Source: Phycisphaerae bacterium (GTDB taxonomy: Bacteria; Planctomycetota; Phycisphaerae; UBA1845; PWPN01). From it: DNA of 34,200 bases. Below are positions 3,750 through 25,241 of this stretch, piece after piece. Position numbers and translations under genes: made by a program. The notes below the pieces were generated by a model. That model was not told the origin of the DNA and ran no database searches. It saw only the letters and a program-made list of their open reading frames with translations. The DNA is taken from positions 1-34,200 of the forward strand of contig JAAYDF010000041.1 of the NCBI GenBank assembly GCA_012729395.1, in the 5' to 3' direction. The stretch's first letter is position 1, and the number at the start of each line of letters is the position of its first letter.

Positions 3750-5015
3750 TTACTCCGGATAAATCAGGTACTTGGCCCGCACCTTCATAAACGCTTCGAG
3801 CGGTTCGCGCCAGAGGTTGGGCAGGGTCTCGGGTCGGTCGGAGGTCTTCACCGCTTTCAACACCTGCTTGTTGAACAGCAGGTTGTCAATCTTGTCGACC
3901 TCGAACTTGTCACCGCCGAGCGTTTTGAGTGCCCACCCGATGGTCAGGCCGCTGCGTATCGTTTGGAGGGCGTTGCGGTCGGTGACGATGATGTAGACGC
4001 CCTGGCAGGCCTGCTTGGCGAACTTGCTAGAGGTGGGGGTGAACTCGATGGGCACGAATCGCAGGCCGGGCAGTTGGGCGGCATTCAGCAGGGCGGACAG
4101 CTTCTGTCCGTCAACCCACGGTGCGCCCAGCAGCTCGAACGGCTGGTCGGTGCCGCGGCCGACGGAGACGTTGGTTGCCTCGATGAGCCCGACGGCCGGG
4201 TAGAGCGTCGCCTGCGTCAGGTTGCGCATGTTGGGCGAGGGATTCACCCAGGTCAAGCCGGTCTCGTCCCACCACATGGCCCGCCGCCAGCCTTCGACCT
4301 GCACCACCTTGAGATCACAGTTGATCTCGTATTCCTTGTTGAACATGTGGGCGAGTTCACCGACGGTCATGCCGTGCATGACGGGCAGGGGGCCGTAGCC
4401 GGTGAAGAGTCGCTCCGACCGGTCGTTGATGGGGCCGTCGACCGCCAGGCCGGTAATGGGATTGGGACGGTCGAGCACCACGACGCGGATCTTGTGCTTG
4501 GCCGCCTCCTCCATCGCAAAGCCCATGGTGGCGACGTAGGTATAAAACCGGGCGCCGATGTCCTGGATGTCGAAGACGATGGTGTCGACGCCCTCAAGCA
4601 TCTCGGCCGAGGGGCGGCGGGTTTTGCCGTAGAGACTGAAGACTTTGAGGCGGGTCGCCTCGTCGACCGTATCGCCCACGTGCTCATCGAGCGCGCCGTA
4701 GAGGCCATGCTCTGGCGAGAATAGCTTGACCACCTTGACGTTAGGGGCTTTGACCAGCAGGTCGACCAGTCGGTTGCCGTCACGGTCTCGGCCGGTGTGG
4801 TTGGTGATGATGGCGACGCGTTGGCCTTCCAGGAGTTTGTAGTTGTCGCGTTTGAGGATATCAAGGCCGCAGAGCACCTCGGCGGGAGGCCCGGAGGCGT
4901 TCCGCATGCTCGCGTTGGCAGCTTCCGCTGAGCGGCTTGCAGGGCTCGCGGTCAGCAGGAACGCGGCGGTCAGCATCATCGTTACCGCAGGTGTCCAGCA
5001 CTTGTTCATCGTCAT
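3750..5015 (-). CDS. Secreted exo-beta-N-acetylmuramidase NamZ-like protein (DUF1343, GH171)
   Basis: 421 residues from the ATG at 5015, which has AGGAAAGG just upstream; a second ATG two codons later (5009) is also possible. A longer open frame runs back to 5240, but that part is translated hairpin repeat and is rejected. Residues 1-32 form a signal peptide (hydrophobic VTMMLTAAFLLTASPAS, then ASRSAEA), so the enzyme acts outside the cytoplasm. DUF1343 signatures are clear: TNHTGRDRDG at 71-80, FSPEHGLYG at 99-107, VFDIQDIGARFYTY at 147-160 and DRPNPITG soon after. Characterised members remove terminal MurNAc from peptidoglycan fragments. A role in cell-wall recycling or in use of foreign peptidoglycan is inferred; the local genes do not decide. 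Confidence 0.88.
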   Translation of the reverse strand: MTMNKCWTPAVTMMLTAAFLLTASPASRSAEAANASMRNASGPPAEVLCGLDILKRDNYKLLEGQRVAIITNHTGRDRDGNRLVDLLVKAPNVKVVKLFSPEHGLYGALDEHVGDTVDEATRLKVFSLYGKTRRPSAEMLEGVDTIVFDIQDIGARFYTYVATMGFAMEEAAKHKIRVVVLDRPNPITGLAVDGPINDRSERLFTGYGPLPVMHGMTVGELAHMFNKEYEINCDLKVVQVEGWRRAMWWDETGLTWVNPSPNMRNLTQATLYPAVGLIEATNVSVGRGTDQPFELLGAPWVDGQKLSALLNAAQLPGLRFVPIEFTPTSSKFAKQACQGVYIIVTDRNALQTIRSGLTIGWALKTLGGDKFEVDKIDNLLFNKQVLKAVKTSDRPETLPNLWREPLEAFMKVRAKYLIYPE

Positions 5016-5086
5016 GCCCTTTCCTGATAGATCCTGATTTCCCAGATCCACAATCGCTCCAGGTTCACCAAGCAAAGCCGTGCTTC

Positions 5087-5170
5087 CCAGAAGAGCCGCG
5101 TCTTCTGGCAGAGCCGCGACCGTCAGGGAGCGGAGGCTCCAGGGACCGCCCCCTGACGGTCGCGGCTCTG
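5087..5170. repeat. Double hairpin element (REP-like)
   Basis: This lies in the 355-bp gap between the NamZ-like gene and spmA. Two perfect inverted repeats abut: CCAGAAGA (5087-5094) with TCTTCTGG (5101-5108), then a 20-bp arm at 5109-5128 with its exact complement at 5151-5170. The longer stem can extend four more pairs past one mismatch. The arm contains CCTGACGGTCGCGGCTCTG, a variant of a motif inside the 243-bp repeat at the window start, so this is a dispersed family member. No T-tract follows on either side, which argues against a simple terminator. The remaining gap (5171-5370) shows no gene. Confidence 0.8.
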
Positions 5171-5370
5171 CTCGGGTCGCGGTTTGCCGGCCAACCTTGA
5201 GCGGTGTGGCAACGGCGTCGCCCCGGCGTACGAGGGGCATTGTAACCGGGGAGGGCGGTGGATGCGAAGAGCGCGGGTGGGCGTGAACTACGGTCCGTCC
5301 GAGGGTACCATGCCGCTCGGGGCGAATCGTGGAACTCGCCCACAGCTCGACGCGTCACGGAGCATGAACC

Positions 5371-10152: not shown

Positions 10153-10381
10153 GAACCAGTCTCACCGCAAGTGTATGGTTCGCGAGCAATTGCTCGTGCG
10201 GCACTGCTCCGTGAGCCGTGCGCTTTGTGTGCAATTCCCTTGGCCGCGTTTCGATGGAGGCCCATGGCGACCAGCCTGCCTTTCAGCGGCGGCGCCGGCC
10301 GTTGACAGTGGCCAACCGTCGCGTCCCCGTGTATCCTACCCGCTCCGGTTTGAACCTTGGTACCAGCGTGTGAGGTGGCAT
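10153..10381. other. Intergenic region with two perfect palindromes
   Basis: Just at the stop of the upstream gene, GTGAGA (10149-10154) pairs with TCTCAC (10160-10165). Next comes the 14-bp perfect palindrome CGAGCAATTGCTCG (10183-10196). No T-tract follows. TTGACA occurs at 10302-10307, but no suitable -10 lies at 16-18 bp. The GH127 gene follows, with GAGGTGG just before its start. Confidence 0.5.
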
Positions 10382-12739
10382 ATGACGCGTGCATGGATGT
10401 GGGTATCGGCCGTTCTACTGGGTCTTTGTCAGGTGGGCGCATCAGCCGCTGAGCCGACGCACGCCAAGCTGCGACCTGTCTCTTTTGGCAAGGTCACTAT
10501 TCAGGACAGCTTCTGGTCGCCTCGCATCGAAGCCAACCGTACGGTCACGTTGCCGCATAGTCTCAAGCACTGCGAGAACACCGGGCGGATCTCCAACTTC
10601 GCCAAGGCGGGCAAGCTCATCGAGGGCGAGTTCGAGGGCATTTACTTCAACGATTCCGATCTGTACAAAGTCCTCGAAGGGGCGGCGTATTCTCTGGCTT
10701 TGCACCCCGACCCACAGCTCGAAGCCCGCATCGACAGCATCATCGATCAGATCGCCAGCGCCCAGCAGCCCGATGGATACCTGAACACCTACTTCACGCT
10801 CAAAGAGCCCGACAAGCGATGGACCGATTTGGCGAAGATGCACGAGCTTTACTGTGCGGGTCATTTGTTCGAGGCCGCCGTCGCCTACTATGAGGCCACG
10901 GGCAAACGCAAGCTGCTCGATGTCGCGTGCCGGTTCGCCGACCACATCGATACCGTGTTTGGCCCTGGCAAGAAGATCGGCTACTCCGGGCACGAGGAGA
11001 TCGAGCTTGCTCTCATCAAGCTGGCTCGCGTGACCGGCGAGCAGCGGTACCGCAAGCTGGCTGAGTGGTTCGTCGAGATCCGCGGGCAGAACCGCGATCC
11101 CAAGGAGGAGTACTGCCAGGCCCACTTGCCGGTGGCCGAGCAGAGCGAGATTGTCGGGCATGCCGTCCGAGCCATGTACCTCTACGCGGCGGTGGCGGAC
11201 ATTGCCGGGCTGACCGGTCGCAGGGATTACATCGAGGCCATGGACCGGCTTTGGTTGAACGTCACCGGACGCAAGCTCTACCTGACCGGCGGGATCGGTG
11301 CTGAGGCCCGTAATGAGGGGTTCTCGGCCGATTTCGACCTGCCCAACGACAGCGCCTACGCGGAGACCTGTGCCGCGATCGGGCTGGCCATGTGGAGTCA
11401 CCGGCTGTTGTTGCTTCACGGAGAGGGGCGGTTCACCGACATCCTGGAACGCACGCTTTACAACGGCATCTTGTCGGGCGTGGCCATGGCTGGTGACAAG
11501 TTCTTCTATGTGAATCCGCTGGCCAGTCGCGGCCGACATCACCGACAGCCCTGGTACGGTTGTGCGTGTTGCCCGACGAATGTGGTCCGCTTCATACCGG
11601 CGTTGGGGGGCTACATCTACGCGACCAGCGACGACGGCGCATGGGTGAACCTCTATGTGGCCAGCGGCGCCGAGATGGATATAGGCGGCAACACCGTCAA
11701 GCTCAAGCAGGAGACGAAGTATCCCTGGTCCGGCCAGGTGCGCATTGCGGTCGAGCCGGCCAAGGAGGCCGTTTTCAGCGTCAACCTGCACATCCCCGCT
11801 TGGTGCGAGCAGTTCCAGGCCAAGGTGAACGGTTCGGTGTTGCCCAAGCTGCGGCAGGGTGTCGAGCATGGCTACCTCACGATCCGGCGGAACTGGAAGC
11901 CCGGCGATGTGGTCGAGCTGGACTTGGCTATGCCGGTCGTCCGAGTGCAGGCCAACCCGCGAGTGCAGGCCAATGTGGGGCGGCTGGCCTTGCAGCGGGG
12001 GCCGCTGGTTTACTGTCTTGAGGGAGTGGATCACGGCGGGAAGGTTCGCAATATGGCGATTCCGCGTGCCGCCACGATCAATGAGCGGCACGAGCCTGCA
12101 TTGCTGGGCGGAATCGTGGTCCTGACCGGCGAGGGCTTGGCGATCGACGCGGTGGACTGGACGGAAAGTCTGTACAGGCCCGCGCTGGGGGGGCGTCCGG
12201 TGACGCTCACGGCGGTTCCCTACTACGCGTGGGATCACCGCGAGCCTGGCGAGATGGTGGTCTGGATTCCGGAGGCGATTGGGATAGCCGAAGTGCCGCC
12301 CCCGCCGACCAGAGTCTCCGACGCCACCGTGACGGCCTCGCACTGCTTTGAACGGGACACGGTCGCGGCTGTTAACGACGGCGCGATACCCGCTTATTCG
12401 CACGATGGCGGTATTCCGCGGTTCACGTGGTATCCGCACCGCGGCACACAGGAGTGGATTGAGTATTCGCTGCCTCGGCCGCAGTTGGTAGACAAGGTGG
12501 ACGTCTACTGGTGGGATGACGCTGCGACGGGAGGCAACTGCCGGGTACCGCAGTCCTGGCGATTGATGTGGAAGCGGGGCGACGCATGGGAACCGGTGAA
12601 GGTTCACGGTGCAGCCCCGGTCCGTAAAGATGATTGGAGCCGGGTGACGTTTGACCCGGTGCCCACGATGGGACTACGCATTGAAGTGCGGTTGCAGGAG
12701 AACTACAGCGGCGGCATTCTGGAGTGGCGAGTGCCGTAG
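10382..12739 (+). CDS. GH127-family secreted glycoside hydrolase (beta-L-arabinofuranosidase-like)
   Basis: 785 residues. I chose the ATG at 10382 because it starts a signal peptide (VSAVLLGLCQVGASAAE) and has GAGGTGG just upstream. The GH127 (former DUF1680) catalytic barrel covers about 30-480. In the characterised Bifidobacterium enzyme a Glu and three Cys bind zinc, one Cys being the nucleophile. The matching residues here are Glu328 and Cys330 in ETCAA, and Cys396-Cys397 in CACCPTN. A beta-sandwich region follows (VQANVGRLALQRGPLVYCLEG). The last 140 residues form an F5/8-type-C-like carbohydrate-binding domain. It probably removes arabinofuranose or a related sugar from plant or algal glycans outside the cytoplasm; exact specificity cannot be read. 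The DUF1080 gene follows after 23 bp, suggesting an operon. Confidence 0.92.
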   Translation: MTRAWMWVSAVLLGLCQVGASAAEPTHAKLRPVSFGKVTIQDSFWSPRIEANRTVTLPHSLKHCENTGRISNFAKAGKLIEGEFEGIYFNDSDLYKVLEGAAYSLALHPDPQLEARIDSIIDQIASAQQPDGYLNTYFTLKEPDKRWTDLAKMHELYCAGHLFEAAVAYYEATGKRKLLDVACRFADHIDTVFGPGKKIGYSGHEEIELALIKLARVTGEQRYRKLAEWFVEIRGQNRDPKEEYCQAHLPVAEQSEIVGHAVRAMYLYAAVADIAGLTGRRDYIEAMDRLWLNVTGRKLYLTGGIGAEARNEGFSADFDLPNDSAYAETCAAIGLAMWSHRLLLLHGEGRFTDILERTLYNGILSGVAMAGDKFFYVNPLASRGRHHRQPWYGCACCPTNVVRFIPALGGYIYATSDDGAWVNLYVASGAEMDIGGNTVKLKQETKYPWSGQVRIAVEPAKEAVFSVNLHIPAWCEQFQAKVNGSVLPKLRQGVEHGYLTIRRNWKPGDVVELDLAMPVVRVQANPRVQANVGRLALQRGPLVYCLEGVDHGGKVRNMAIPRAATINERHEPALLGGIVVLTGEGLAIDAVDWTESLYRPALGGRPVTLTAVPYYAWDHREPGEMVVWIPEAIGIAEVPPPPTRVSDATVTASHCFERDTVAAVNDGAIPAYSHDGGIPRFTWYPHRGTQEWIEYSLPRPQLVDKVDVYWWDDAATGGNCRVPQSWRLMWKRGDAWEPVKVHGAAPVRKDDWSRVTFDPVPTMGLRIEVRLQENYSGGILEWRVP

Positions 12740-12762
12740 AAACGATTTGGAAAGGACAAGTC

Positions 12763-14157
12763 ATGAAGGCAACAAGGTTCTGGATGTGTGCGCTGACCGG
12801 CGTGGCGAGCTTGTGGCCGGTGTCGTTCGCTTGGGGCGAGGCGAAATGGGTCGATCTGTTCAATGGAAAGGATTTGGCCGGGTGGAAGGCCCTGGACCCC
12901 GCCCAGAACGAGTGGCGGGCGGCCGTTGCGGTCAAACCCGATCCTGCCGAGGAGACTCGCTTCACGATGACCGATGGCGAGGGTGTTCTGGTGAATGGGC
13001 CGCGTGGCAGCACCAGCAACATCTACACGGAGCACGAGCACGGCGACTGTGAGCTGCACGTCGAGTTTGTGGTGCCCAAGGGCTCCAACTCCGGCGTCTA
13101 TCTCATGGGCTTCTACGAGATTCAGGTTCTCGACAGTTACGGCAAGAAAGAGGTTGAGTACAGTGACTGTGGGGGCATCTATGGCCAGTGGACGGAAGAG
13201 AAGGGTACCTTCAATGGTCGCCCGCCCATGGTGAATGCTTCACGTCAGCCGGGCGAGTGGCAGAGCTTTGATGTTATCTTCCGTGCTCCGCGGTTTGACG
13301 AGCAGGGAAAGAAGATCGAGAACGCCCGGTTTGTCCGGGTGATGCACAATGGGCAATTGGTACACCAGCAGGTCGAGCTTCTGGGACCGACGCGAGCGTC
13401 CCTGCCCGGCCCTGAGAAGCCGCTGGGGCCCCTCATGCTCCAGGGCGATCATGGCCCCGTCGCCTATCGCAATATCCGCGTCCGCCCGCTCAAGGATGCC
13501 GGCGGCGTCGCTTGGTTCAATGGCAGAGACCTTACCGGCTGGCGGCCAGTCAAGGCGGACCGCAACGATTGGCGCGTGGCCGGGGAAGTCAGGATGGATC
13601 CCGAGGATAACAGGAAGCTGGTCATCACGGACGGTGAAGGTCTGCTCTGCAACGGCGCCGCGGGCAAGACGGGCCACTTGGTCAGTGAACGCGAGCACGG
13701 CGATGCCCATATCTACGTCGAGTTTCTCGTGCCTGCCGGGTCCAACTCGGGCATCTACTTGATGGGCAAGTATGAGCTTCAGATCCTCGACAGCTTCGGA
13801 AAGAAGGAGATGACCTACGTGGACTGCGGCGCGGTCTACGCCCGGTATGAAGCCAGCCGGGGCGAGTTCGAGGGCCACGCGCCGGCCGTCAATGCCAGTC
13901 GGCCGCCGGGGCAGTGGCAGACCTACGAGATCGCCTTCCGGGCTCCGCGATTTGACAAGGATGGGAAGAAAGTTGAAAATGCCCGGCTGCTTCGGGTCTT
14001 GCATAATGGGCTGCTCATTCATGAGAATCTCGAGCTCACCGGCCCGACGCGTGCGCCCACGCCCGGCCCCGAACGGCCGCGCGGGCCGCTGTTGTTACAG
14101 GGCGACCACGGGCCGGTTGCCTTTCGTAACTTCTACATCTGCGATCTGAGCGACTGA
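12763..14157 (+). CDS. Secreted protein with two tandem DUF1080 (3-keto-disaccharide hydrolase) domains
   Basis: 464 residues; the ATG at 12763 has AAAGGA six bases upstream. Residues 1-26 are a signal peptide. Domain 1 (about 28-240) begins WVDLFNGKDLAGWK and domain 2 (about 248-464) begins VAWFNGRDLTGWR. They are clearly related: both hold SNSG[VI]YLMG.YE.Q[VI]LDS.GKKE, then D.GG/GAVY, and end GP..LQGDHGPVA[YF]RN. DUF1080 is a LamG/GH16-like jelly roll, and some members hydrolyse 3-keto-glycosides. Most members have one such domain, so this is an internal duplication. It sits between GH127 and ackA and is probably co-transcribed with both (2 bp before ackA). Confidence 0.9.
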   Translation: MKATRFWMCALTGVASLWPVSFAWGEAKWVDLFNGKDLAGWKALDPAQNEWRAAVAVKPDPAEETRFTMTDGEGVLVNGPRGSTSNIYTEHEHGDCELHVEFVVPKGSNSGVYLMGFYEIQVLDSYGKKEVEYSDCGGIYGQWTEEKGTFNGRPPMVNASRQPGEWQSFDVIFRAPRFDEQGKKIENARFVRVMHNGQLVHQQVELLGPTRASLPGPEKPLGPLMLQGDHGPVAYRNIRVRPLKDAGGVAWFNGRDLTGWRPVKADRNDWRVAGEVRMDPEDNRKLVITDGEGLLCNGAAGKTGHLVSEREHGDAHIYVEFLVPAGSNSGIYLMGKYELQILDSFGKKEMTYVDCGAVYARYEASRGEFEGHAPAVNASRPPGQWQTYEIAFRAPRFDKDGKKVENARLLRVLHNGLLIHENLELTGPTRAPTPGPERPRGPLLLQGDHGPVAFRNFYICDLSD

Positions 14158-14159
14158 CG

Positions 14160-15377
<1,218 letters not shown>

Positions 15378-15527
15378 GGCTCTGCCTGTGGCGGTGGATT
15401 ACTTGGTGAGTACACCGCTGCCAGAGGAGAGCGACCTGCAAACCATTCGTGGCAGTGCCGCCGACGGATCGGTTGCAGGCCAGGCCGATGTGCCGGTGCA
15501 CAACGATATATGGAAGGAATGCGCTGC

Positions 15528-16349
15528 ATGCATGTCAACCTCGGCAAAGCCTTGCTGCTATGTTCGCTCTTGCTGCTGGTCGTTCCCGCGTGCCAACAGC
15601 CTGACGCTCCGTGTGTGCCCCGTGTCGCCGCGGATTGGACCCTCGACAGAGGCGGAGTCGTCCGCGGCTCGCGTGCCGACAAGAAGCTTGCTCTTGTGTT
15701 CACCGGGGGCGAATTCGGTGAAGGCGCCACCGAGATCCTCGATGCGCTGCAGGCCCGCGGTGTCAAGGCCTCCTTCTTCGTGACCGGCGACTTCACGGCC
15801 CAGCCGTCGCACGCAGCTTACCTGCGGCGCATGGTGGCCGACGGGCATTACCTGGGCCCCCATTCCCATGCCCATTTGCTCTACTGCCCTTGGGAAGACC
15901 GCAACCAGACACTTGTCACCCGCGAGCAGTTCAGAGATGACCTGAAAAGAAACATCCGCGAGCTGACCCGTTTCGGGGCCGACCGCCGCAGTATGCGGTT
16001 CTTCATTCCGCCTTTCGAGTTCTACAACGAGCAGATCGTGACCTGGACCTGTCAAATGGGACTCCTGTTGGTCAACTTCACACGCGGCACCCGCTCACAC
16101 GCCGACTGGGCCCCCGAAGGCCACCGTAGTTTCCTGCCCTCACAGGCCATCTACCAGGGCATCCTCGACTACGAGGCGGGCAATCCCGACGGACTGAACG
16201 GCTTCCTGCTCCTGATGCACGTGGGCTCCGGCCCGCAGCGGGCTGACAAGATGCACCCCTATGTCGCTCCCCTGGTCGATGAGCTCCACCGCCGCGGCTA
16301 CACGTTCGTTCGGGTTGACGAACTGCTGCCCATCCCGCCCGCCGAGTAG
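15528..16349 (+). CDS. Lipoprotein polysaccharide deacetylase (NodB-like) with variant metal motif
   Basis: 273 residues from the ATG at 15528, chosen because GAAGGA lies 9 bases upstream and a lipoprotein signal follows (LLLLVVPAC, lipid-modified Cys22). Two in-frame ATGs at 15510 and 15519 are less well placed. The NodB-like fold is clear: LALVFTGGEFGEGATEILDA (54-73), KASFFVTGDF (80-89) and the metal motif HSHAH (112-116). The canonical first motif T-F-D-D is replaced by F-T-G-G-E-F, so the usual catalytic and metal Asp pair is missing and Glu62 is the likeliest stand-in. I believe a subfamily with this variant exists in Bacteroidota and planctomycetes. It may deacetylate a polysaccharide or do something else. 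It follows ackA by 150 bp. Confidence 0.82.
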   Translation: MHVNLGKALLLCSLLLLVVPACQQPDAPCVPRVAADWTLDRGGVVRGSRADKKLALVFTGGEFGEGATEILDALQARGVKASFFVTGDFTAQPSHAAYLRRMVADGHYLGPHSHAHLLYCPWEDRNQTLVTREQFRDDLKRNIRELTRFGADRRSMRFFIPPFEFYNEQIVTWTCQMGLLLVNFTRGTRSHADWAPEGHRSFLPSQAIYQGILDYEAGNPDGLNGFLLLMHVGSGPQRADKMHPYVAPLVDELHRRGYTFVRVDELLPIPPAE

Positions 16350-16484
16350 TCACTTCACTATGTGCCATGGGCCGGCAAAGACCGCGGATACCCGCGAATC
16401 CAGCCGCATCTCTTGATTCACAGGTGATTCACGCGGCCGGCTTGTTGGTTTGTAGGCCTGCCGCGTGAGCTGTCGGCATGCCCG

Positions 16485-18074
16485 TCATTTTGGTTTCTGC
16501 TCGGACGCGGTCCCATCGCTTCCCCGTATCCAGTCCAGCAGCAGGCGGCGACCTTTCGCTTCTTCCCTTGGCTCGAGGGCTACGATTCTGATCGTGTGGT
16601 TGCCCGCCTGAAGGTCCGTCTCGGCCACCGTGATTTCAAAAGGCCCCGGGAACGGAGGGGCCTGATAGAGATCGATCGGTTCGCCAGCGGGTAGGTCGTT
16701 GAGCGCCAGGGTGAATCGCCCGCCGGCCTCTCCACGACAGGGCCGGGCCTTGATTGTGTACTTGCCGGGCCGGGGCACACTGAACGGTAGTGTGAGGGTG
16801 TCGCCCACCGCGGCAGCATCCCATTGCAGCCCGTGCTGCCCGCTGAACATCTCGCCCCAGAAGTGCATCCCCGCCTCGATGACCGTGCCGGCCGACGCTT
16901 CGGCCACGTCCACGAGATTCTCGGCTTCCCACCGGCCGTCGTCGCCGGCGTGGGGCCGCAAGTACCCGGGCATGCGCTCCGCCACGGCAGGAAGCTCCCT
17001 TCGCGAGGATGGATATCCTGCCTGATACCAGTAGGCGACGCTTGAGCACCAGTTGTGCTGGTCGTTGCCCTGCCAGCCGTGCTCGATGCCCACGCGAATG
17101 GATTCACGGAAAGGGATCGGGTCCGAAATATGGTAGCGGTAGATGTTCCACAAGTCGCCGGCCTGCCAAGCCTGCGGCCACTTCCACGGGTCGAGATCCT
17201 TGCCTCGTAGGTCGGGTGTGCATCGCTCCAGGATCCCGCTTGCGTTGAACCGGCCGCGGAGCGGCGCACCGAACTGTGGAAACGAGAACTCATGGCTGTA
17301 GCACCATGCTCCGCCGAAGTCATCCTCGGTGCCGGTGCCTTCGATCGAGGCGTGCGACTCGCCGTCCACATAGATCCGCACGTCGCCTTCGCCCCACCAG
17401 CCTTCGTCCTGCTGCTCGACGGACAGGTTGCAGCCGACGAAGTGCCCTCGTCCACCGTCGGTCTCCATGATGATGTAGGGTGTGCCGTGTTCCGGCGGAA
17501 AGGCCTGACGGTACGCGGCAAAGAAACGCAGCCCATCCCGAGGTGGACGCGACAGTCTGCGGTAGTCGATTTGGTAGTAGAGGGCGACGCAATCCTGGGC
17601 CCCGTCGTTGGCCACCTCGATTCGTGCCCGCTTCGTGAACGGCATCCGCCAGTACGAGTTGAGTCCGCCGTGCGTGCCCACGGCCAGCGGCTGGCTGGCA
17701 TAAGCGTAGGTCTGGGCGTGCCCCAGCCCAAAGAAGTCCCCCAGCGGGGCCTCGACGCACGGACCTTCGATGTCGTCGAACCAGATGCGAAGGACCAGCT
17801 TGCGCAGCGAGCTGCGCGAGGGATACATGTGCGTGAACCAGATGTGGGTGATCTCGGCCGGGCCCTCGATCTCCGCCAGCGTCAGGGCCTTGCCCGCCTC
17901 CACTCGCCTCATGTCCAGATTGCCGCCCGAGGAATCGCTGCTCGACACCCGCTGTGCCGTGTGGTTCTGAATGCGCGTCAGACTATCGAGCGTTTGTGCG
18001 ACGCCCTCCGCCTGCAAGAGACACACGGCAAGAGCGCTAAGCGAAACGAGGATAGACGGTCTGATGATGAGCAT
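16485..18074 (-). CDS. Secreted GH172-family protein (DUF2961) with C-terminal carbohydrate-binding-like domain
   Basis: 529 residues from the ATG at 18074, which has GAGG about 9 bases upstream and begins a signal peptide (ILVSLSALAVCLLQAEGVAQ). The frame extends 17 codons further, but those lack protein character. DUF2961 signatures include ITHIWFTHMYP (about 74-84), LRIWFDDIEGPCVEAPLGDFF (about 93-113) and the acidic motif EGTGTEDDFGGAW (about 246-258). The family, now GH172, includes alpha-D-fructofuranosidase and D-arabinofuranosidase activities and uses Glu residues. The final 120 residues (about 400 on) are an extra beta-rich domain with GKYTIKARPCRGEAGG, probably carbohydrate-binding. 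It converges with the deacetylase gene. Confidence 0.9.
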   Translation of the reverse strand: MLIIRPSILVSLSALAVCLLQAEGVAQTLDSLTRIQNHTAQRVSSSDSSGGNLDMRRVEAGKALTLAEIEGPAEITHIWFTHMYPSRSSLRKLVLRIWFDDIEGPCVEAPLGDFFGLGHAQTYAYASQPLAVGTHGGLNSYWRMPFTKRARIEVANDGAQDCVALYYQIDYRRLSRPPRDGLRFFAAYRQAFPPEHGTPYIIMETDGGRGHFVGCNLSVEQQDEGWWGEGDVRIYVDGESHASIEGTGTEDDFGGAWCYSHEFSFPQFGAPLRGRFNASGILERCTPDLRGKDLDPWKWPQAWQAGDLWNIYRYHISDPIPFRESIRVGIEHGWQGNDQHNWCSSVAYWYQAGYPSSRRELPAVAERMPGYLRPHAGDDGRWEAENLVDVAEASAGTVIEAGMHFWGEMFSGQHGLQWDAAAVGDTLTLPFSVPRPGKYTIKARPCRGEAGGRFTLALNDLPAGEPIDLYQAPPFPGPFEITVAETDLQAGNHTIRIVALEPREEAKGRRLLLDWIRGSDGTASEQKPK

Positions 18075-18200
18075 GTCGGGATCCTCAGATCGGGGCCTTG
18101 CTCCTGTATGTCCATGCGACCCCACTGACCCGCCTTGCGGGTCGCGCAGTCCGCCTCCGCGGGAGTCATGCGCTCAGCCGACCCGCCGAGACGCATTGAG

Positions 18201-19292
18201 TCACTCTTGCGGGCCGGCGTTTCGTGACGGCCGCCATCGCCGGAGCTGCTCGCCGTATTGCGGCAATGGCGGTTCCCCGTGTTTCGACACGTAATCGGCG
18301 TCGATGTATACCGCGAAGGTTGTCACGTGCCGAATGCCCCGCCGGCCGTACATATCCAAATCAGCGGCCAGGACTCGCGGATCAAAGGGAACCTTCACGG
18401 CTGGTTTCTTCCATTTGGAGAATAGCGATACGTCGAGCCAGTATTCCAGCACCTGGGCATCACCACGGCCAAAGACCTCGAGGTTCGCGTCCAGCATTTC
18501 AAACTCCTGCCGGCTCTTCGCGTCGTTGGCCTGCTCAAACGGCACATCGTAGCGACGGTGAATGGGGGCGTATTCGAGGAAAACGCCGGGCTTCCGCTTG
18601 ATCTGCCTGGGCGGCGGGAGCGTGTTGTGGTATGCCAGGTAGGCCACCTGAGCGGCGGAGTGCGTCTCTCGAATGGCGTCGAGGATACGCGTCGCGACGA
18701 GCAGAGCCTGATCGCTGTCGCTCAACTCCGCACACCGAGGGCAGCGGCACCAAGGACAGCCGTCGTCGCCCCAGTAGAAATATCGCCCGGTGGTGGGATG
18801 TAGGGTCTTCGCCAGATCCACAGCGTTCTGGGCCACCGTCTGCATGGCCAGTTCCGAATGGACGCACAGGTTCCATTCGCGAACCCGTGCCCCCTTGTCG
18901 TCCATGCGAAAGAGTTCCGGCGCCTTATCGAACAGCTCCCGCGGCAACAGATCCTGCATGGCGTGCAGTTCATACTCGACGTTCAGACCAAGCCGTCGGC
19001 AGGTGCGGAGGAACTGCTGTCCAGCCTCGGATTCGACGTAGTTGGCCAGTGCTCGAGGCGACCTGGTTGCGTGGAGCGCGATGGTGGTCAGCCCTGCCGC
19101 CGCGGCGCGTTCAGGCCAGTCGGTGAGCGTCAGGTCTTCGGGCGTCACCACGACGCCGCGCGTGTGGAAGAAGGGCTGGTCCTCACTGGGCCGGCTTGTC
19201 GAGGCGAGTGCCGTCCGGCCGACCGCCAGGCCGCAGGCCAGGGATTCGAGGAACCTTCGCCGGGTGATGTGTCTTGCCTTGTGTGTGTGCAT
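18201..19292 (-). CDS. Tat-exported DUF4838-like protein
   Basis: 363 residues. The start at 19292 gives a twin-arginine signal (TRRRFLESLACGLAVG, about 10-25). The middle contains GDDGCPWCRCPRCAEL (about 174-189), a Cys-rich motif resembling the C-x-x-C of DUF4838 proteins, and then LEYAPIHRRY near 240. DUF4838 is found with glycoside hydrolases, often beside alpha-glucuronidase-like domains, but has no established reaction. Four cysteines in 11 residues suggest metal or disulfide binding. A secreted sugar-related enzyme is inferred from the GH172 gene 126 bp downstream on the same strand. The start has only a poor ribosome binding site. Confidence 0.72.
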   Translation of the reverse strand: MHTHKARHITRRRFLESLACGLAVGRTALASTSRPSEDQPFFHTRGVVVTPEDLTLTDWPERAAAAGLTTIALHATRSPRALANYVESEAGQQFLRTCRRLGLNVEYELHAMQDLLPRELFDKAPELFRMDDKGARVREWNLCVHSELAMQTVAQNAVDLAKTLHPTTGRYFYWGDDGCPWCRCPRCAELSDSDQALLVATRILDAIRETHSAAQVAYLAYHNTLPPPRQIKRKPGVFLEYAPIHRRYDVPFEQANDAKSRQEFEMLDANLEVFGRGDAQVLEYWLDVSLFSKWKKPAVKVPFDPRVLAADLDMYGRRGIRHVTTFAVYIDADYVSKHGEPPLPQYGEQLRRWRPSRNAGPQE

Positions 19293-19457
19293 ACCATTAG
19301 CCTATCAACTTGCCGTCCGGAGAGCCATGTTCTCGCCCTGGCTGGGTGCCTTCCATGCCGCTGGCGGAACCATGTTCGCCAGGATACAGTATCGCCGGCG
19401 TCCTTGGCTACCCGCTTCGACGGTGTGCCAGGAAGGCCGGCTATAGGAGAAGGGCTC

Positions 19458-19721
19458 ATGCACGACAGGCATATGGTCTTTGGCATTCACATCACCGAAC
19501 GCATCCGCAACGCGGGGGAGATTCAGAAAGTTCTCACCCAGTACGGCTGCAATATCAAGACTCGGATCGGGTTGCACCACGTTGACGAGAAGGTCTGTTC
19601 GCCCGACGGGCTTATCCTCCTGGAAATGTGGGGGGACGAAGGAACCTGCCACGAGATGGCTGCTAAACTGGAGCAGCTCACCGGCGTGGAGGTCCAGAAG
19701 ATGATCTTCGACCATCCGTGA
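19458..19721 (+). CDS. Small ACT-type protein, TM1266 (iron-only hydrogenase system regulator)-like
   Basis: 87 residues; the ATG at 19458 has AGGAGAAGG immediately upstream. The single small domain shows an ACT-like pattern: FGIHITERIRNAGEIQKVL (8-26), YGCNIKTRIGLHHVDE (28-43), CSPDGLILLEMWGD (46-59) and a C-terminal LEQLTGVEVQKMIFDHP. This matches the family named for Thermotoga TM1266, often near [FeFe]-hydrogenase maturation genes and annotated as a putative regulator. No hydrogenase gene is present here. The ligand is unknown. It lies alone on the plus strand between minus-strand genes and is short but strongly supported by its ribosome binding site. Confidence 0.82.
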   Translation: MHDRHMVFGIHITERIRNAGEIQKVLTQYGCNIKTRIGLHHVDEKVCSPDGLILLEMWGDEGTCHEMAAKLEQLTGVEVQKMIFDHP

Positions 19722-19746
19722 CACGGCCTGCCAGGGAGAGCGATAC

Positions 19747-21495
19747 TCACTCGCTCTGTTGCGCCTCGGCCGGGCGGCCCAGAAGGTAGCCGAACACGAT
19801 CGTGATACCGACGCCCATGGGGAGATACCACGGCCAAGCCAGGTTGAATTGGCCTCCCAGGGGCTCATCCCCGATCAACGCCGACCAATGCGTGGACAGG
19901 GCGATCGCCGACGCCGCCAGCAGCCAGATCACCCGCGGAAACTCCCCAACCAACAGGTACCAGGCGTGCCGTACGTAAGTCTCCTGGTTCTTGATGCGCG
20001 GCAGCATCTCAATCTCATGAAACAAGGCGTAGAACCACAGAACGACCAGGGCTCCCACTCCTCCGATGAGCAGGTAATGAGCCCAAGCCTCGTGCCAGAT
20101 CATGCCGAACGCCGTCAGCACGGCAAAAGACGCACCGAACGCAATCCCGCGAGATGTCCGACGACTGGAAGAGAACGCCAACAGCAGTGAACCGATGAGC
20201 GCCCCGTAGGTGAAGCTCGTCAGTCTCAAGGCCAGGGCGACCACGTCTGAGTAAGCGTCCATGCTCTGGAATCCGAAAGCCGCCACGACCAAGGCCAGAC
20301 CCCACAGGAGAATGAACAGCCGGGCGTATTGTACCTGCGCTGGCTCGTCCGTCGGCATGTCTGCACGAGCACTCATGTTCAGCCAACGCAGCGTCGTCTG
20401 TGAGAGAGCCGCCACTGCCGCGTTGACGCTTGAAATGCCCGCGGCCAGAAGACCGGCGACCAGCAGTCCTTTCAGACCGGCCGGAAGGATCGCCGCTACG
20501 AACAGGGGGAAGATGTTGTCCGCGTTGACCGAGCCCGAGTGATCAGTGAACTGATCCGGATAGTCAAGGCAGTAGACGAACATCCCGATGCCGACGAACA
20601 GCAGCACAAGCACGAACACTTGGTTCAGACTGCTGGCGATGATTGCCTTGCGGGCTTCCCCTGGTGAGCGGCAGCAGAACAGGTACTGGGCGTTCATCTG
20701 ATCCGCGCCGTTGGATGCCAGCGTGTTGAACGTACTACCGAAGAGGCCTGTCCAAATGGTTAGCTCCAGTGCGTAGTCGAAGTTGAAGTCCAGCAATCGC
20801 AGCTTGCCCATCTGTGAGGCCTCAGCGAGCATGTGGCTGAACCCGCCTTCGGACTGCGTGATCAGAAACAGGGCGGTGGCCAGTGCGCCCGCCACGAGCA
20901 CGCCGAACTGCACCACGTTCGTCCATACCACTGTGCGCAAACCGCCGATCGCCGCCCATAGTACCGCGAGAGCGGCTACAACAAGGATGGTGGTCGGCAT
21001 GGACACACCCGTGATCAGCTGCATGACCTTGGCCAGAATGAAGACGCGGGCTGACTGGCCCACAATCGCGCTCAGCATGAACAACGCGCTGGTTACCCGC
21101 TCGGCCCCGAGCCCGAACCTCCGACCTACGTATTGGTAGGGGCTGTATAACTCGTCCTCGTAAAAGGCCGGAACGAAGTAGTACCCGATGATGAATCTCG
21201 CCAGGATGGCCCCGATCGCCAGTTGCAGATAGACAAGAGATCCGGAATATCCCAGTGAAGGAACACCGGTGTAGCTTGCGGCGCTGACTTCCGTTGCCAT
21301 CAGGGCGAAGCAGATCGCCACCCAAGGCAGATTGCGGTCCGCGAGGAAGAAGTCGCGAATTGTCTTCGAATCACCCTTCATCTTGAGGGCGAAGATGGTG
21401 GTGCCCACCAAGGAAAGCACAATGATGAACCAGTCAAACCCGTGGAGGGGAGAACCTAAACAAGCCTGGGACAGAAGGAGATAGGAACTGCACAT
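19747..21495 (-). CDS. Sodium:solute symporter (SSS family)
   Basis: 582 residues from the ATG at 21495, with GGAGGAG 8 bases upstream. About 13-14 hydrophobic segments are visible along the whole length. SSS landmarks are the opening helix DWFIIVLSLVGTTIFALKMK, the FFLADRNLPWVAICFALMATEVSAASYTG region (about 54-80, the usual sodium-site area), Y.YVGRRFG (about 122) and SNGADQMNAQYLFCCRS (about 258-274), typical of sugar-type members. It probably imports a sugar or uronate with sodium across the inner membrane; the substrate is inferred from the neighbouring GH172, DUF4838 and esterase-like genes. It ends 25 bp from the opposed ACT-protein gene. Confidence 0.92.
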   Translation of the reverse strand: MCSSYLLLSQACLGSPLHGFDWFIIVLSLVGTTIFALKMKGDSKTIRDFFLADRNLPWVAICFALMATEVSAASYTGVPSLGYSGSLVYLQLAIGAILARFIIGYYFVPAFYEDELYSPYQYVGRRFGLGAERVTSALFMLSAIVGQSARVFILAKVMQLITGVSMPTTILVVAALAVLWAAIGGLRTVVWTNVVQFGVLVAGALATALFLITQSEGGFSHMLAEASQMGKLRLLDFNFDYALELTIWTGLFGSTFNTLASNGADQMNAQYLFCCRSPGEARKAIIASSLNQVFVLVLLFVGIGMFVYCLDYPDQFTDHSGSVNADNIFPLFVAAILPAGLKGLLVAGLLAAGISSVNAAVAALSQTTLRWLNMSARADMPTDEPAQVQYARLFILLWGLALVVAAFGFQSMDAYSDVVALALRLTSFTYGALIGSLLLAFSSSRRTSRGIAFGASFAVLTAFGMIWHEAWAHYLLIGGVGALVVLWFYALFHEIEMLPRIKNQETYVRHAWYLLVGEFPRVIWLLAASAIALSTHWSALIGDEPLGGQFNLAWPWYLPMGVGITIVFGYLLGRPAEAQQSE

Positions 21496-21781
21496 GATTC
21501 GAACTCCTCCCCGATGACGGGGGCTCGGGTTTTCTCGCACCGCGGAAATGAAGCGGCTGCCGTCGAGCCGTCACCGGCTCGTTGCCGCTCGGTCATGCTA
21601 ATCCCTACCCGCGGCCGGAAAGCTTGTCAAGCGCCACGGAACGCCTGTCGTTTCCCAGATCGCACATGGCGAGGACCGCCGAGGCGGGGTGCGCCCCCGC
21701 GTTTCCGGGCGTCTGGCTGGGACTTGGCACCGGACAGGACCGAGCAATGACGGTGGAGCAGTCAGCCGAAGAAGGAATCGC

Positions 21782-23986
21782 TTATCTCCGTGGCGTCCAC
21801 TTCTGTGCGGCTATCCAATGAACCGCGTTCTCGATGTCGGCAGGCTGTTCGGTGATGCGCACGCGGGCACCATGGGTTTGGGCGGCGGACTGGACCCACT
21901 GAGAGGGAAACGCGGGACCGACGTTGTGGAACCATGCCGGGCCTGCAGTGGCGACGCCCGCGGCACACTGGAGGCCCCCGAGGCGGCGAATGCCGGGCAG
22001 ATTCACGGAGCCCAGATAGACTTCGTCGCTTGCGACGTCGAGCCGCTGGAGGTCGACGACGGTGACTACGGGTACTGTCTCAGTGATCCAATCGGGAATC
22101 ACAGCGCGGGCCATGAGCATGGCCGGGCCCAGAACACCGAAGCCCACGAGGTTGACACGTTCCAGCTTCTCGTAGTCCGCCAGCAGGACGCCGAGGATGG
22201 TGGCAAGGTCGTAGGTCGCCTCGGCCAGGTCGGTTCGATTGAAGGTGGTGAAATAGGCCGTCGTGCCGCGGGCTTTGCCGACAAACGCTGTGGCTTGTTC
22301 AAAGGCTTGGGCGATCGTGGGGGAATCGGTGGAATCGATGGGTCTGGTGGGCTGGCCGGGAAGTCGGAGCTCGCCAACGCCGAAGGGCTCGACGAAGACT
22401 ACGGTATCAGGTTTCTGCTTGCTCATGGCGGCCAAAACGAAGGCCTCCATCTGTTCGGCGATCGCGACACCTTCTGGATGAGCAAAGATCGTGATGCCAC
22501 CGCGCGGCCGGGGACACAAACGGGTGTCAAGCTGGAATGTGCGGACGACCCGCTGATTGCGGACGTAGTAACGCTCGACCGGGTAGGGGGGGAAGCCTGC
22601 CTTCTCGACGAACTCCTGATTGGCCCGCAGGGCCTGTTCACTCAACCAGCCGTTCATGAAAAACGGCTTGTCGGTCTTGGGAATGACCTGGACCTGCTCA
22701 CACCGAGGCAACTCGCTGCTGATGGCGTGCATGAGCCCGGCCTGGAAGTGCCAGCTAAGCAGACCCAGATCACGCGGGTTCGTGGGGGACATGGAGTCGA
22801 GCTTGGCCTGGGCGGCGGTAATCATCTCGTTCAGCAGTTGGGCGGCGGAGTGGGCCCGAGCGGGGAGGTTATCACCCTCGCGGAAACAAAGAAGGTCCTC
22901 GTCGGCTTCCACGGTGAAGGGTGACTCTGTGACCACTGGTCCGCCGGGCTTGCCGAACAGATGCTGGGCGAGAAACTGATACACCGCGGCCCGGCTGGCT
23001 TGGTTGAAGTTCGTGGGGCCCTCGATGTGGACGTTTCGGACATCCTTGGCTTGCCCGTAAAGCTCGTAGATCGAGTGGATCATAGGGAACTCAACGGTAG
23101 GCGTATTGCGGGTGTGATCCTCGCTGGCGCTGACAAAGAGGGCGGGGCGGGGCGCCACGCACGCGGCCAGCTCCATGTTGTTCGTGTCGATCCGCAAGCC
23201 GGGAGCGTTTTCGCAGGGGCAGCCACCCTGCATGTTCGCGGAGACCGCGCAGACGGCGGCGACGGCCTTGACGCGGTCGTCGAGCGCGGTCAAGAGCAGA
23301 CCGTGCATACCTCCCGCTTCTATGCCTACAATGCCGAGACGCTGGCGGTCCACCTCAGGGAGCGATTGGAGGAGATCAAGCCCTCTAATACCGTTCCAGA
23401 TCTCAAGCCCCATCGACGAGATGCCCCAGAGAGCAAGCTGTGGCGTGTCAATCACATGCTCGATCTGCTGACGACTATCGCCGAAACCAACCATATCGCA
23501 TACCAAGACAACCGTCCCAAGCCGGGCGAGGGTCACGCAGGCAGCCGCAATGGAGCAGGTGTCATCGTGCTGCAGACGCCCACGGGGCCAATGCCCGTGT
23601 AGCATGAGCACGGCGGGAGTCTTGCCGGGCACTTTCTTAGGGCGGTAGAGATTCCCCGTGACCAGAAGGCCGGGCACGCTTTCGAAGCAGACCTTGCTGA
23701 TCGTGTACGTGCCCCGGTCGAGCAGGTCCGATTCCTCGGGACGCAGTGGTGTTCGCACGGGTTCAGGCCAGAGCCCTGCGGCGAACTGGATCTGGCCCTT
23801 GAGCCAGGCCCGGCGGGTCTCCCAGTCAGTCAGCGTCGCAAAACTCGCCGGTTGGAATGGGGTGGTCGTCTCGGGGAGGTCCTGCCAGCGTAGCTTGGCG
23901 GGGGGCAACTCAGGGTGATCGGTCGCCCCGGCCGGGATCGCACCGGCCAGCAGCAACAGGCAGATAGCCAAACTGCTTCGCTGCAT
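21782..23986 (-). CDS. Secreted acetyl-xylan-esterase-like two-domain alpha/beta-hydrolase lacking the catalytic Ser and His
   Basis: 734 residues from the ATG at 23986, with an ideal AAGGAG 8 bases upstream and a signal peptide (LAICLLLLAGAIPAGATD). The long frame upstream to 24304 is rejected. Domain 1 (about 40-345) is an alpha/beta-hydrolase: LMLHGHWPRG (127-136), CDMVGFGDS (163-171), CENAPGLRIDTNN (258-270) and the ASED segment with Asp290. The nucleophile elbow, expected G-x-S-x-G, reads G-I-E-A-G with Glu223. The usual catalytic His in the HNYN-type motif is Thr325 (PTNFNQASR). Domain 2 (about 480-734) looks like a second, weaker alpha/beta-hydrolase fold with GFGVLGP. As written, domain 1 should not work as a serine esterase. 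Binding, a different chemistry or decay are possible. Confidence 0.85.
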   Translation of the reverse strand: MQRSSLAICLLLLAGAIPAGATDHPELPPAKLRWQDLPETTTPFQPASFATLTDWETRRAWLKGQIQFAAGLWPEPVRTPLRPEESDLLDRGTYTISKVCFESVPGLLVTGNLYRPKKVPGKTPAVLMLHGHWPRGRLQHDDTCSIAAACVTLARLGTVVLVCDMVGFGDSRQQIEHVIDTPQLALWGISSMGLEIWNGIRGLDLLQSLPEVDRQRLGIVGIEAGGMHGLLLTALDDRVKAVAAVCAVSANMQGGCPCENAPGLRIDTNNMELAACVAPRPALFVSASEDHTRNTPTVEFPMIHSIYELYGQAKDVRNVHIEGPTNFNQASRAAVYQFLAQHLFGKPGGPVVTESPFTVEADEDLLCFREGDNLPARAHSAAQLLNEMITAAQAKLDSMSPTNPRDLGLLSWHFQAGLMHAISSELPRCEQVQVIPKTDKPFFMNGWLSEQALRANQEFVEKAGFPPYPVERYYVRNQRVVRTFQLDTRLCPRPRGGITIFAHPEGVAIAEQMEAFVLAAMSKQKPDTVVFVEPFGVGELRLPGQPTRPIDSTDSPTIAQAFEQATAFVGKARGTTAYFTTFNRTDLAEATYDLATILGVLLADYEKLERVNLVGFGVLGPAMLMARAVIPDWITETVPVVTVVDLQRLDVASDEVYLGSVNLPGIRRLGGLQCAAGVATAGPAWFHNVGPAFPSQWVQSAAQTHGARVRITEQPADIENAVHWIAAQKWTPRR

Positions 23987-24173
23987 GGTGAAGTCTCCTT
24001 GCCGATAACCACAAGGACCGGCCGCTCTCCTTCGTGCCGCCGTGGCGGTCGTCTCTTCTGGATGAACTGGCTCGCTCCAATGTCTCCGCTTCGATACCCT
24101 ATTGTCCCGTCGGCCCGCGAGCTTGTCCATAGATGACGTATCAGCGGGCCGGCTTTTCGGGTAGGGTGGCGAC

Positions 24174-25241
24174 ATGGCAATGCCAGCATCCAACTCACGA
24201 TCCGTTGCTGACACCGCCTCTGCTGGCCCTGAGTCGGGCCCGAAGCTGCAATCGGTCGCTTCGCTGCTTGGCCAAGTGATCGAAGGCGATAACCTCGTTC
24301 TCATGCGCAGCTTGGCGGAGGAGCAGGCGGATCTGATCTATGCCGACCCGCCGTTCTTCACCGGGAAGATCTTCAGCGTGTCCCCAGGCAGGACGAGAGG
24401 ACGCAAGAGGGCCAAGGCGACCCCTGCTGCACAAGGGCTGTTGCCGGGACTGCTCGCGAGTCCGGAAAGTGCAGACGAGGATCAGAGTTCTCGGCCCGAC
24501 GGTGACGCAACCCGCGGAGTCTCGATACCCGTCCCACGCACTCCCCGCACGTCACAGGCTGTCGAGGCGCAGGGCTTCGTAGATTCCTGGCGGGGGGGGA
24601 TGGAGAGCTACCTGACTTTTCTGCGGCCAAGGGTCGAGGAGATGCGCCGGTTGCTCAAGCCCACGGGTACGCTTTATCTGCACCTCGATTGGCATGCGGT
24701 GCACTACGCCAAGGTGATGTTGGACGAGGTCTTCGGATACGACAACTTCTTGAATGAGATCATCTGGTCTTATCGCACGGGGGGCTTGAGCCGGCAATGG
24801 TTCGCCCGCAAGCACGACACGATTCTTGTCTATGCCCGTCGGCTTGGTCAGCACAAGTTTCACGTGCAACGCGGGGGATCTTTCCGAACGGACGGACTGC
24901 TCCGCGACGAAGCCGGCCGACCTTACAAGAATACTCGGTCCGGCCGTCTCTACTTTCATCCCGACGGGCCGACGATGACTGACGTCTGGGAAATGCCTTT
25001 CTTGTCGACCGTCTCACGCGAGCGAACGGGCTACCCCTCTCAGAAGCCGGAAGCCTTGCTCGAACGTATTCTGCAAACCGGCACGGATCCAGGCGACGTG
25101 GTCGCGGACTTCTTCTGCGGAAGCGGAACCACCTTAGCGGTCGCCGCGCGCCTCGGTCGCCTGTGGTTGGGTTGCGATTGCTCCCGCGACGCCGTCCGCA
25201 TCACCCGCCAACGGCTCCCCCAAAAAATAGTGTCAGGATGA
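24174..25241 (+). CDS. Site-specific DNA methyltransferase, adenine/N4-type, orphan
   Basis: 355 residues; the ATG at 24174 has GGTAGGGTGG a few bases upstream, and a second ATG two codons later is possible. The catalytic motif DPPF is at 58-61 (LIYADPPFF) and the AdoMet-binding motif FCGSGTT is near 312-318, so catalytic precedes binding motif, as in beta-class enzymes. YPSQKPEALLERIL precedes motif I, as in Mod/N6-adenine methyltransferases. Between them EIIWSYRTGG and a presumptive target-recognition region are seen. An insertion-like, low-complexity stretch occupies about 67-125. No restriction endonuclease gene is adjacent, so an epigenetic or orphan role is inferred. The target base and sequence cannot be read. 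The stop codon lies in the terminator stem that follows. Confidence 0.88.
   Translation: MAMPASNSRSVADTASAGPESGPKLQSVASLLGQVIEGDNLVLMRSLAEEQADLIYADPPFFTGKIFSVSPGRTRGRKRAKATPAAQGLLPGLLASPESADEDQSSRPDGDATRGVSIPVPRTPRTSQAVEAQGFVDSWRGGMESYLTFLRPRVEEMRRLLKPTGTLYLHLDWHAVHYAKVMLDEVFGYDNFLNEIIWSYRTGGLSRQWFARKHDTILVYARRLGQHKFHVQRGGSFRTDGLLRDEAGRPYKNTRSGRLYFHPDGPTMTDVWEMPFLSTVSRERTGYPSQKPEALLERILQTGTDPGDVVADFFCGSGTTLAVAARLGRLWLGCDCSRDAVRITRQRLPQKIVSG

Follow-up and report, generated by a model that had tools for sequence, protein, structure and literature searches.

The gene at the centre of this analysis, located in a window of 34,200 nucleotides (the whole stretch of Phycisphaerae DNA that was analysed), probably encodes a functional, zinc-containing pseudo-esterase, which would have derived from an active CE19-like enzyme. 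In its N-terminal domain the nucleophile Ser and the catalytic His of a serine esterase are replaced by Glu223 and Thr325, respectively, while the third triad residue, Asp290, is in place. Missing catalytic residues in an intact and conserved fold are one element of the operational definition of a pseudoenzyme, and this combination was found here, the fold being a predicted one. The features of the gene and its product are listed in Table 1.

Table 1. Features of the probable pseudo-esterase gene and its product (positions in the window)
Feature	Position	Strand	Basis
Pseudo-esterase gene, two domains, 734 aa, secreted CE19-like homologue	21782..23986	minus	
Ribosome-binding site AAGGAG, 8 bases upstream of the ATG at 23986	23995..24000	minus	sequence read
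Probable signal peptide, residues 1-22, cleavage after A-G-A	23921..23986	minus	translation; low pLDDT at 1-23
N-terminal CE19-like alpha/beta-hydrolase domain and linker helices, residues 31-440	22667..23896	minus	profile match to 6goc_A, VIA
C-terminal second alpha/beta domain, residues 495-730, without elbow Ser	21797..22504	minus	
Glu223 (GAA), nucleophile elbow; Ser282 in BT1017	23318..23320	minus	alignment
Asp290, catalytic acid position kept; Asp352 in BT1017	23117..23119	minus	alignment
Thr325 (ACG), replacing the catalytic His; His388 in BT1017	23012..23014	minus	alignment
His132, putative zinc ligand/oxyanion-hole His (His preceding Phe202 of the BT1017 paper)	23591..23593	minus	alignment to BT1017
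His177, putative zinc ligand; His244 in BT1017	23456..23458	minus	alignment to BT1017
Cys256-Pro-Cys258, putative zinc ligands; Cys315 and Cys317 in BT1017	23213..23221	minus	alignment to BT1017

The reading frame was taken from the ATG at 23986. A longer reading of 840 aa from 24304 overlaps the divergently oriented DNA methylase gene at 24174-25241 on the plus strand (N6_N4_Mtase, E 1.5e-43). The GC contents at the three codon positions of the N domain (0.66/0.47/0.76) are similar to those of the neighbour genes and are those of a working gene. Within the protein, Pfam AXE1 (PF05448) matches residues 97-245 with 30.2 bits, which is above the curated cut-off of 21, and an NCBIfam search with the 734-aa protein yielded no match at E 0.01. 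The AlphaFold2 model has a mean pLDDT of 86 and a pTM of 0.88, with pLDDT values of about 92-98 over most of the N domain. Among proteins of known structure, the best match is to BT1017 (6goc; phmmer 142.6 bits, E 1.2e-40), a pectin methylesterase of Bacteroides thetaiotaomicron with the triad Ser282-Asp352-His388, which was confirmed with alanine mutants of all three residues (PMC7939467). The profile match to 6goc_A has an E value of 4.9e-75, and the model retrieved 6goc with Foldseek at E 9.4e-22. In the VIA comparison, model residues 39-390 superimposed on 6goc with Z 38 and an rmsd of 2.5 Å (336 aligned residues, 31% identity), and all structures that follow in the ranking reach Z 25 or less. 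Thus, what the earlier note had called an esterase-like protein could be specified as a relative of BT1017, the CE19 pectin methylesterase, with a two-domain layout. Sequence, fold, and zinc-ligand positions agree with CE19 and the Ser-Asp-His triad does not; for this reason we do not file the protein as a CE19 enzyme but regard it as a triad-less homologue of CE19.

The earlier note had read the elbow as G-I-E-A-G with Glu223 for Ser, and this numbering proved exact: the translation contains the motifs G221-I-E223-A-G225 and G323-P-T325-N-F-N. A structure prediction, which the earlier note had proposed as a check, places both residues where an active esterase has its nucleophile and its His. 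In the AlphaFold2 model, residue 223 forms the elbow between strand 217-222 and helix 224-235, Asp290 lies in the loop after strand 282-287, and Thr325 lies in the loop after strand 316-321. An intact relative (L141) carries Ser253, Asp320, and His355 at the matching places in the fold. At the codon level, S223E requires a minimum of two nucleotide changes and H325T as well as W291H three each; ten deviating conserved codons together hold at least 16 nucleotide changes over 30 bases. A sequencing or assembly error was therefore dismissed as the source of Glu223 and Thr325, since multi-base changes in ten codons argue against it.

The replacements were compared with the corresponding positions in relatives from two kinds of searches. 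Whole-genome similarity searches covered evenly drawn genomes from the same order (114), class (397), and phylum (392), and also took in 29 and 1 genomes from other classes, whereby the genus itself was represented by one genome. Relatives were fetched at E 1e-50 or better. In the N-domain alignment of the non-redundant sequences from these searches, which include a few distant paralogues from the same genome, Ser and His are each present at the two columns in 129/129 relatives. A genome-contig scan with an alignment query confirmed at least 582 relatives, of which the best 80 were kept (among them a Luteitalea locus, L197), whereas the same scan with the protein query alone gave 18 pattern matches and no relatives. 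After addition of these 80 loci, removal of 13 duplicate segments (none was removed for shortness), and omission of locus L221, Ser and His were found in 205/205 relatives each. The best 80 scan loci are biased to Ser because one of the two peptide patterns contains the Ser motif; the 129 relatives from the whole-genome searches are free of this bias. An Asp at column 290 is present in 204 of the 205 relatives. The exception, L053 (G451:C127), has the acid loop A-A-D-G-W-F, probably reflecting a shift of the Asp by one residue in the alignment.

The genome of the bacterium itself contains a paralogue (L002, G000:C223), its second-best matching locus, that resembles the pseudo-esterase in both domains, with 46% identity over query residues 39-430 (392 aligned residues) and 41% over 573-725, but differs in its intact triad motifs GASGGG, GDWT, and HNYN. 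A more distant paralogue from the same genome (L006, G000:C124) seems to comprise, in one open frame, two alpha/beta-hydrolase units that both have a Ser at the elbow (GHSHGA and GHSLGA), in contrast to the second domain of CE19-like proteins. The earlier note had asked whether Glu and Thr are conserved in a clade, but a clade with this pair was looked for among the 205 relatives and none was found. What was found is the case that the note had set against its own reading, namely that relatives keep the triad and this copy has lost it, since the change is shared by no clade and the paralogue from the same genome is intact. As judged from these alignments, the triad was lost in this single lineage, and the change is no clade marker.

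In BT1017, a Zn2+ ion is coordinated tetrahedrally by Cys315, Cys317, His201, and His244; in 6GOC the ion and the Ser are about 9 Å apart, and His201 is common to the zinc site and the oxyanion hole. The function of the zinc is a question that the authors raise themselves (PMC7939467). The family alignment places these ligands on His132, His177, Cys256, and Cys258; its BT1017 numbering is offset from that of the paper, with a shift of 5 at the GHF-motif His and of 6 at six residues. In the plain profile alignment His244 and His177 miss each other by a few residues, within a loop whose length varies. The pattern H,H,C,C at the four ligand positions is present in the pseudo-esterase and in 173/205 relatives. 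Other patterns are HHSC in 12 relatives and a gap at position 132 in 11. The first zinc Cys is replaced by Ser in 12/205 and by Asp in 3/205 relatives, which makes the zinc site variable within the family. With all four ligand positions kept, the pseudo-esterase would be expected to bind zinc.

For the question of decay or constraint we considered 52 columns that are conserved to at least 95% in the subfamily, the five distant paralogues being left out as an outgroup. The pseudo-esterase deviates at 11 of them (Q195E, T220V, S223E, G224A, T227M, Q228H, P244A, M247A, W291H, H325T, and Y327F). Eight of the 11 deviations are no more than five residues away from the triad, compared to 13 of the 52 columns (hypergeometric P 2e-4), and none of the eight conserved columns within three residues of the zinc ligands deviates (P 0.13, not significant alone). 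With the outgroup included, deviations were counted at 10 of 48 columns, and three distant paralogues had more of them; in this comparison L053, with nine deviating columns, ranks next to the pseudo-esterase. His228 and Phe327 are present in active BT1017 too and hence fall within family variation, so they no longer count as indications of a novel active site. Rate trees were built from 14 sequences, with many nodes weakly supported (bootstrap under 70). The N-domain branch of the pseudo-esterase is 0.739 compared to 0.350 for its neighbour L012, and its C-domain branch of 0.872 lies within the range of the others (0.019-1.186). The N/C ratio of mean patristic distances (1.356/2.114 = 0.64) is the highest, the 13 others ranging from 0.36 to 0.56, which points to a relaxed N domain next to a typical C domain. 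After removal of 12 active-site columns, the N-domain mean distance of the pseudo-esterase is 1.270, the second of the 14. An ortholog that shares the Glu/Thr change was not found among the 205 relatives, and purifying selection on the dead form is thus not directly demonstrable. In our reading, the protein is maintained overall, and selection has been relaxed or redirected on its catalytic face.

It might be that the gene was recently inactivated and is decaying without a present function. In this case it would make sense that the change occurs in a single copy among the relatives, that the N/C distance ratio is the highest of the set, and that an intact paralogue remains in the genome. However, 734 codons are free of stops and frameshifts despite the many base changes at the ten active-site codons. 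In a rough simulation of 400 trials, the gene was still free of stops in about 6% of the trials after 200 random base draws and in none after 400. Moreover, the losses cluster in the active site, the core outside of it and the zinc ligands are conserved, the C domain evolves at a typical rate, and the gene has a good ribosome-binding site. Overall, this does not look like simple decay, and we consider an inactivated gene rather unlikely. To this extent the interpretation in the earlier note, a pseudoenzyme and not random decay, is supported.

The alternative named in the same note, a new chemistry, finds no support, as the copy with Glu and Thr stands alone among its relatives. It would require a zinc-assisted hydrolase or other enzyme centred on Glu223, with His132 and its zinc nearby and with His228, His291, and Asp290 round the pocket. 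All zinc-ligand positions are kept, a Glu stands at the elbow in place of Ser, W291H introduces a novel His adjoining the catalytic Asp, and the distance of about 9 Å between zinc and Ser as well as the shared oxyanion-hole His in BT1017 (PMC7939467) would also suit such a site. Yet His325 is lost, which leaves an Asp-nucleophile-like mechanism without a base, His228 and Phe327 are no novelties, and the residue set is conserved in no clade. A Cys2His2 zinc is saturated, lacks an open site, and is usually structural, which makes zinc catalysis unlikely. We thus regard a new enzyme as quite improbable, and just as little speaks to us for the related idea that an esterase scaffold with a bystander zinc was converted, so that the elbow Glu and the zinc-His unit would form a zinc-dependent active or ligand-sensing site. 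Least probable of all, to a degree that we hardly reckon with it, is that esterase activity persists through an intact Ser-His located elsewhere, either in the second domain or with a shifted nucleophile. Nothing was found in its favour; two alpha/beta domains are present in the protein. The predicted elbow is at residue 223, and the elbow string of the second domain, G-F-G-V-L-G at 615-620, contains no Ser. Position 617 is Gly in the pseudo-esterase and in 54/74 relatives, Ser is absent from the six commonest residues at this position in the 74 relatives, and it stands third in the string once among the 25 elbow strings listed. The second domain is therefore seemingly non-catalytic family-wide, and the nucleophile is missing from both domains of the pseudo-esterase. 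A Ser-His pair elsewhere, which the earlier note had named as a finding that would speak against it, was thus not detected.

For the pseudo-esterase reading, we propose an active two-domain serine esterase of the CE19-like type (BT1017/TBR22-type) as the ancestor. In this lineage, Glu would have replaced the nucleophile Ser and Thr the general base His, with adjoining elbow and pocket residues being lost as well. The fold would have been kept together with the Asp, the zinc ligands beside the pocket, and an already non-catalytic second alpha/beta domain. The carboxylate of Glu223 would then lie in the former ester/oxyanion pocket beside the zinc ligand His132, a placement relative to His132 and zinc that is argued from the published distance of about 9 Å in BT1017. 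Given the alanine mutants of BT1017 (PMC7939467), a protein without Ser and His should not be able to carry out the two-step ester hydrolysis of CE19, and esterase activity is presumably gone. As two of the three triad residues are lost, the protein probably binds and does not cut. Its present role is probably that of a non-catalytic, secreted glycan-binding or accessory protein, which would most likely hold a glycan bearing uronic acids or esters or assist active glycan-degradation enzymes.

The neighbour genes fit with glycan breakdown: the region 10175-21540 harbours genes for a GH127 protein, a 3-keto-disaccharide hydrolase, an acetate kinase, a polysaccharide deacetylase, DUF2961 and DUF4838 proteins, and an SSF symporter. 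Further away, at 3750-5240 on the minus strand, lies a gene for a NamZ exo-beta-N-acetylmuramidase in which both the N-terminal and the C-terminal Pfam domain are present. When eleven neighbour proteins were compared to the surroundings of loci L100-L220, matches were restricted to DUF2961 (two loci), SSF (one locus), and the 3-keto-disaccharide hydrolase (two loci). Since the neighbour genes are not conserved around the relatives, the context is little informative on a partner or substrate.

CE19 is a small and little studied family: CAZy listed 251 members as of April 2022, of which a single one had a structure, and BT1017 is described as the sole functionally characterised member (PMC10483417). 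The protein reported here would be a natural pseudo-esterase within this family, and judged by the alignments it is the only such triad-less copy among the relatives examined; in the parts of the open-licence papers considered, no CE19 pseudoenzyme is mentioned. A natural copy that lacks the triad but has the zinc ligands offers a ready test of a structural role of the zinc. With BT1017 it shares the fold, the Asp, the four zinc-ligand positions, and a helical stretch past the domain. BT1017, in contrast, is active and carries Ser282 and His388 where the pseudo-esterase has Glu and Thr, and it ends in DUF3826 according to the domain description in PMC7939467, whereas the pseudo-esterase ends in a second alpha/beta domain. 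The latter layout is that of TBR22_41900 from Luteitalea sp. TBR-22, for which a predicted CE19 domain and a second alpha/beta/alpha domain without a zinc site have been described; this likeness is based on the published description, and the part of it that concerns this protein does not report a triad loss (PMC10483417). In functional terms, the inactive GH28 proteins of beetles offer an analogy from another enzyme family and organism: these catalytically dead pectinase relatives are reported to be still important for pectin digestion (PMC6549527).
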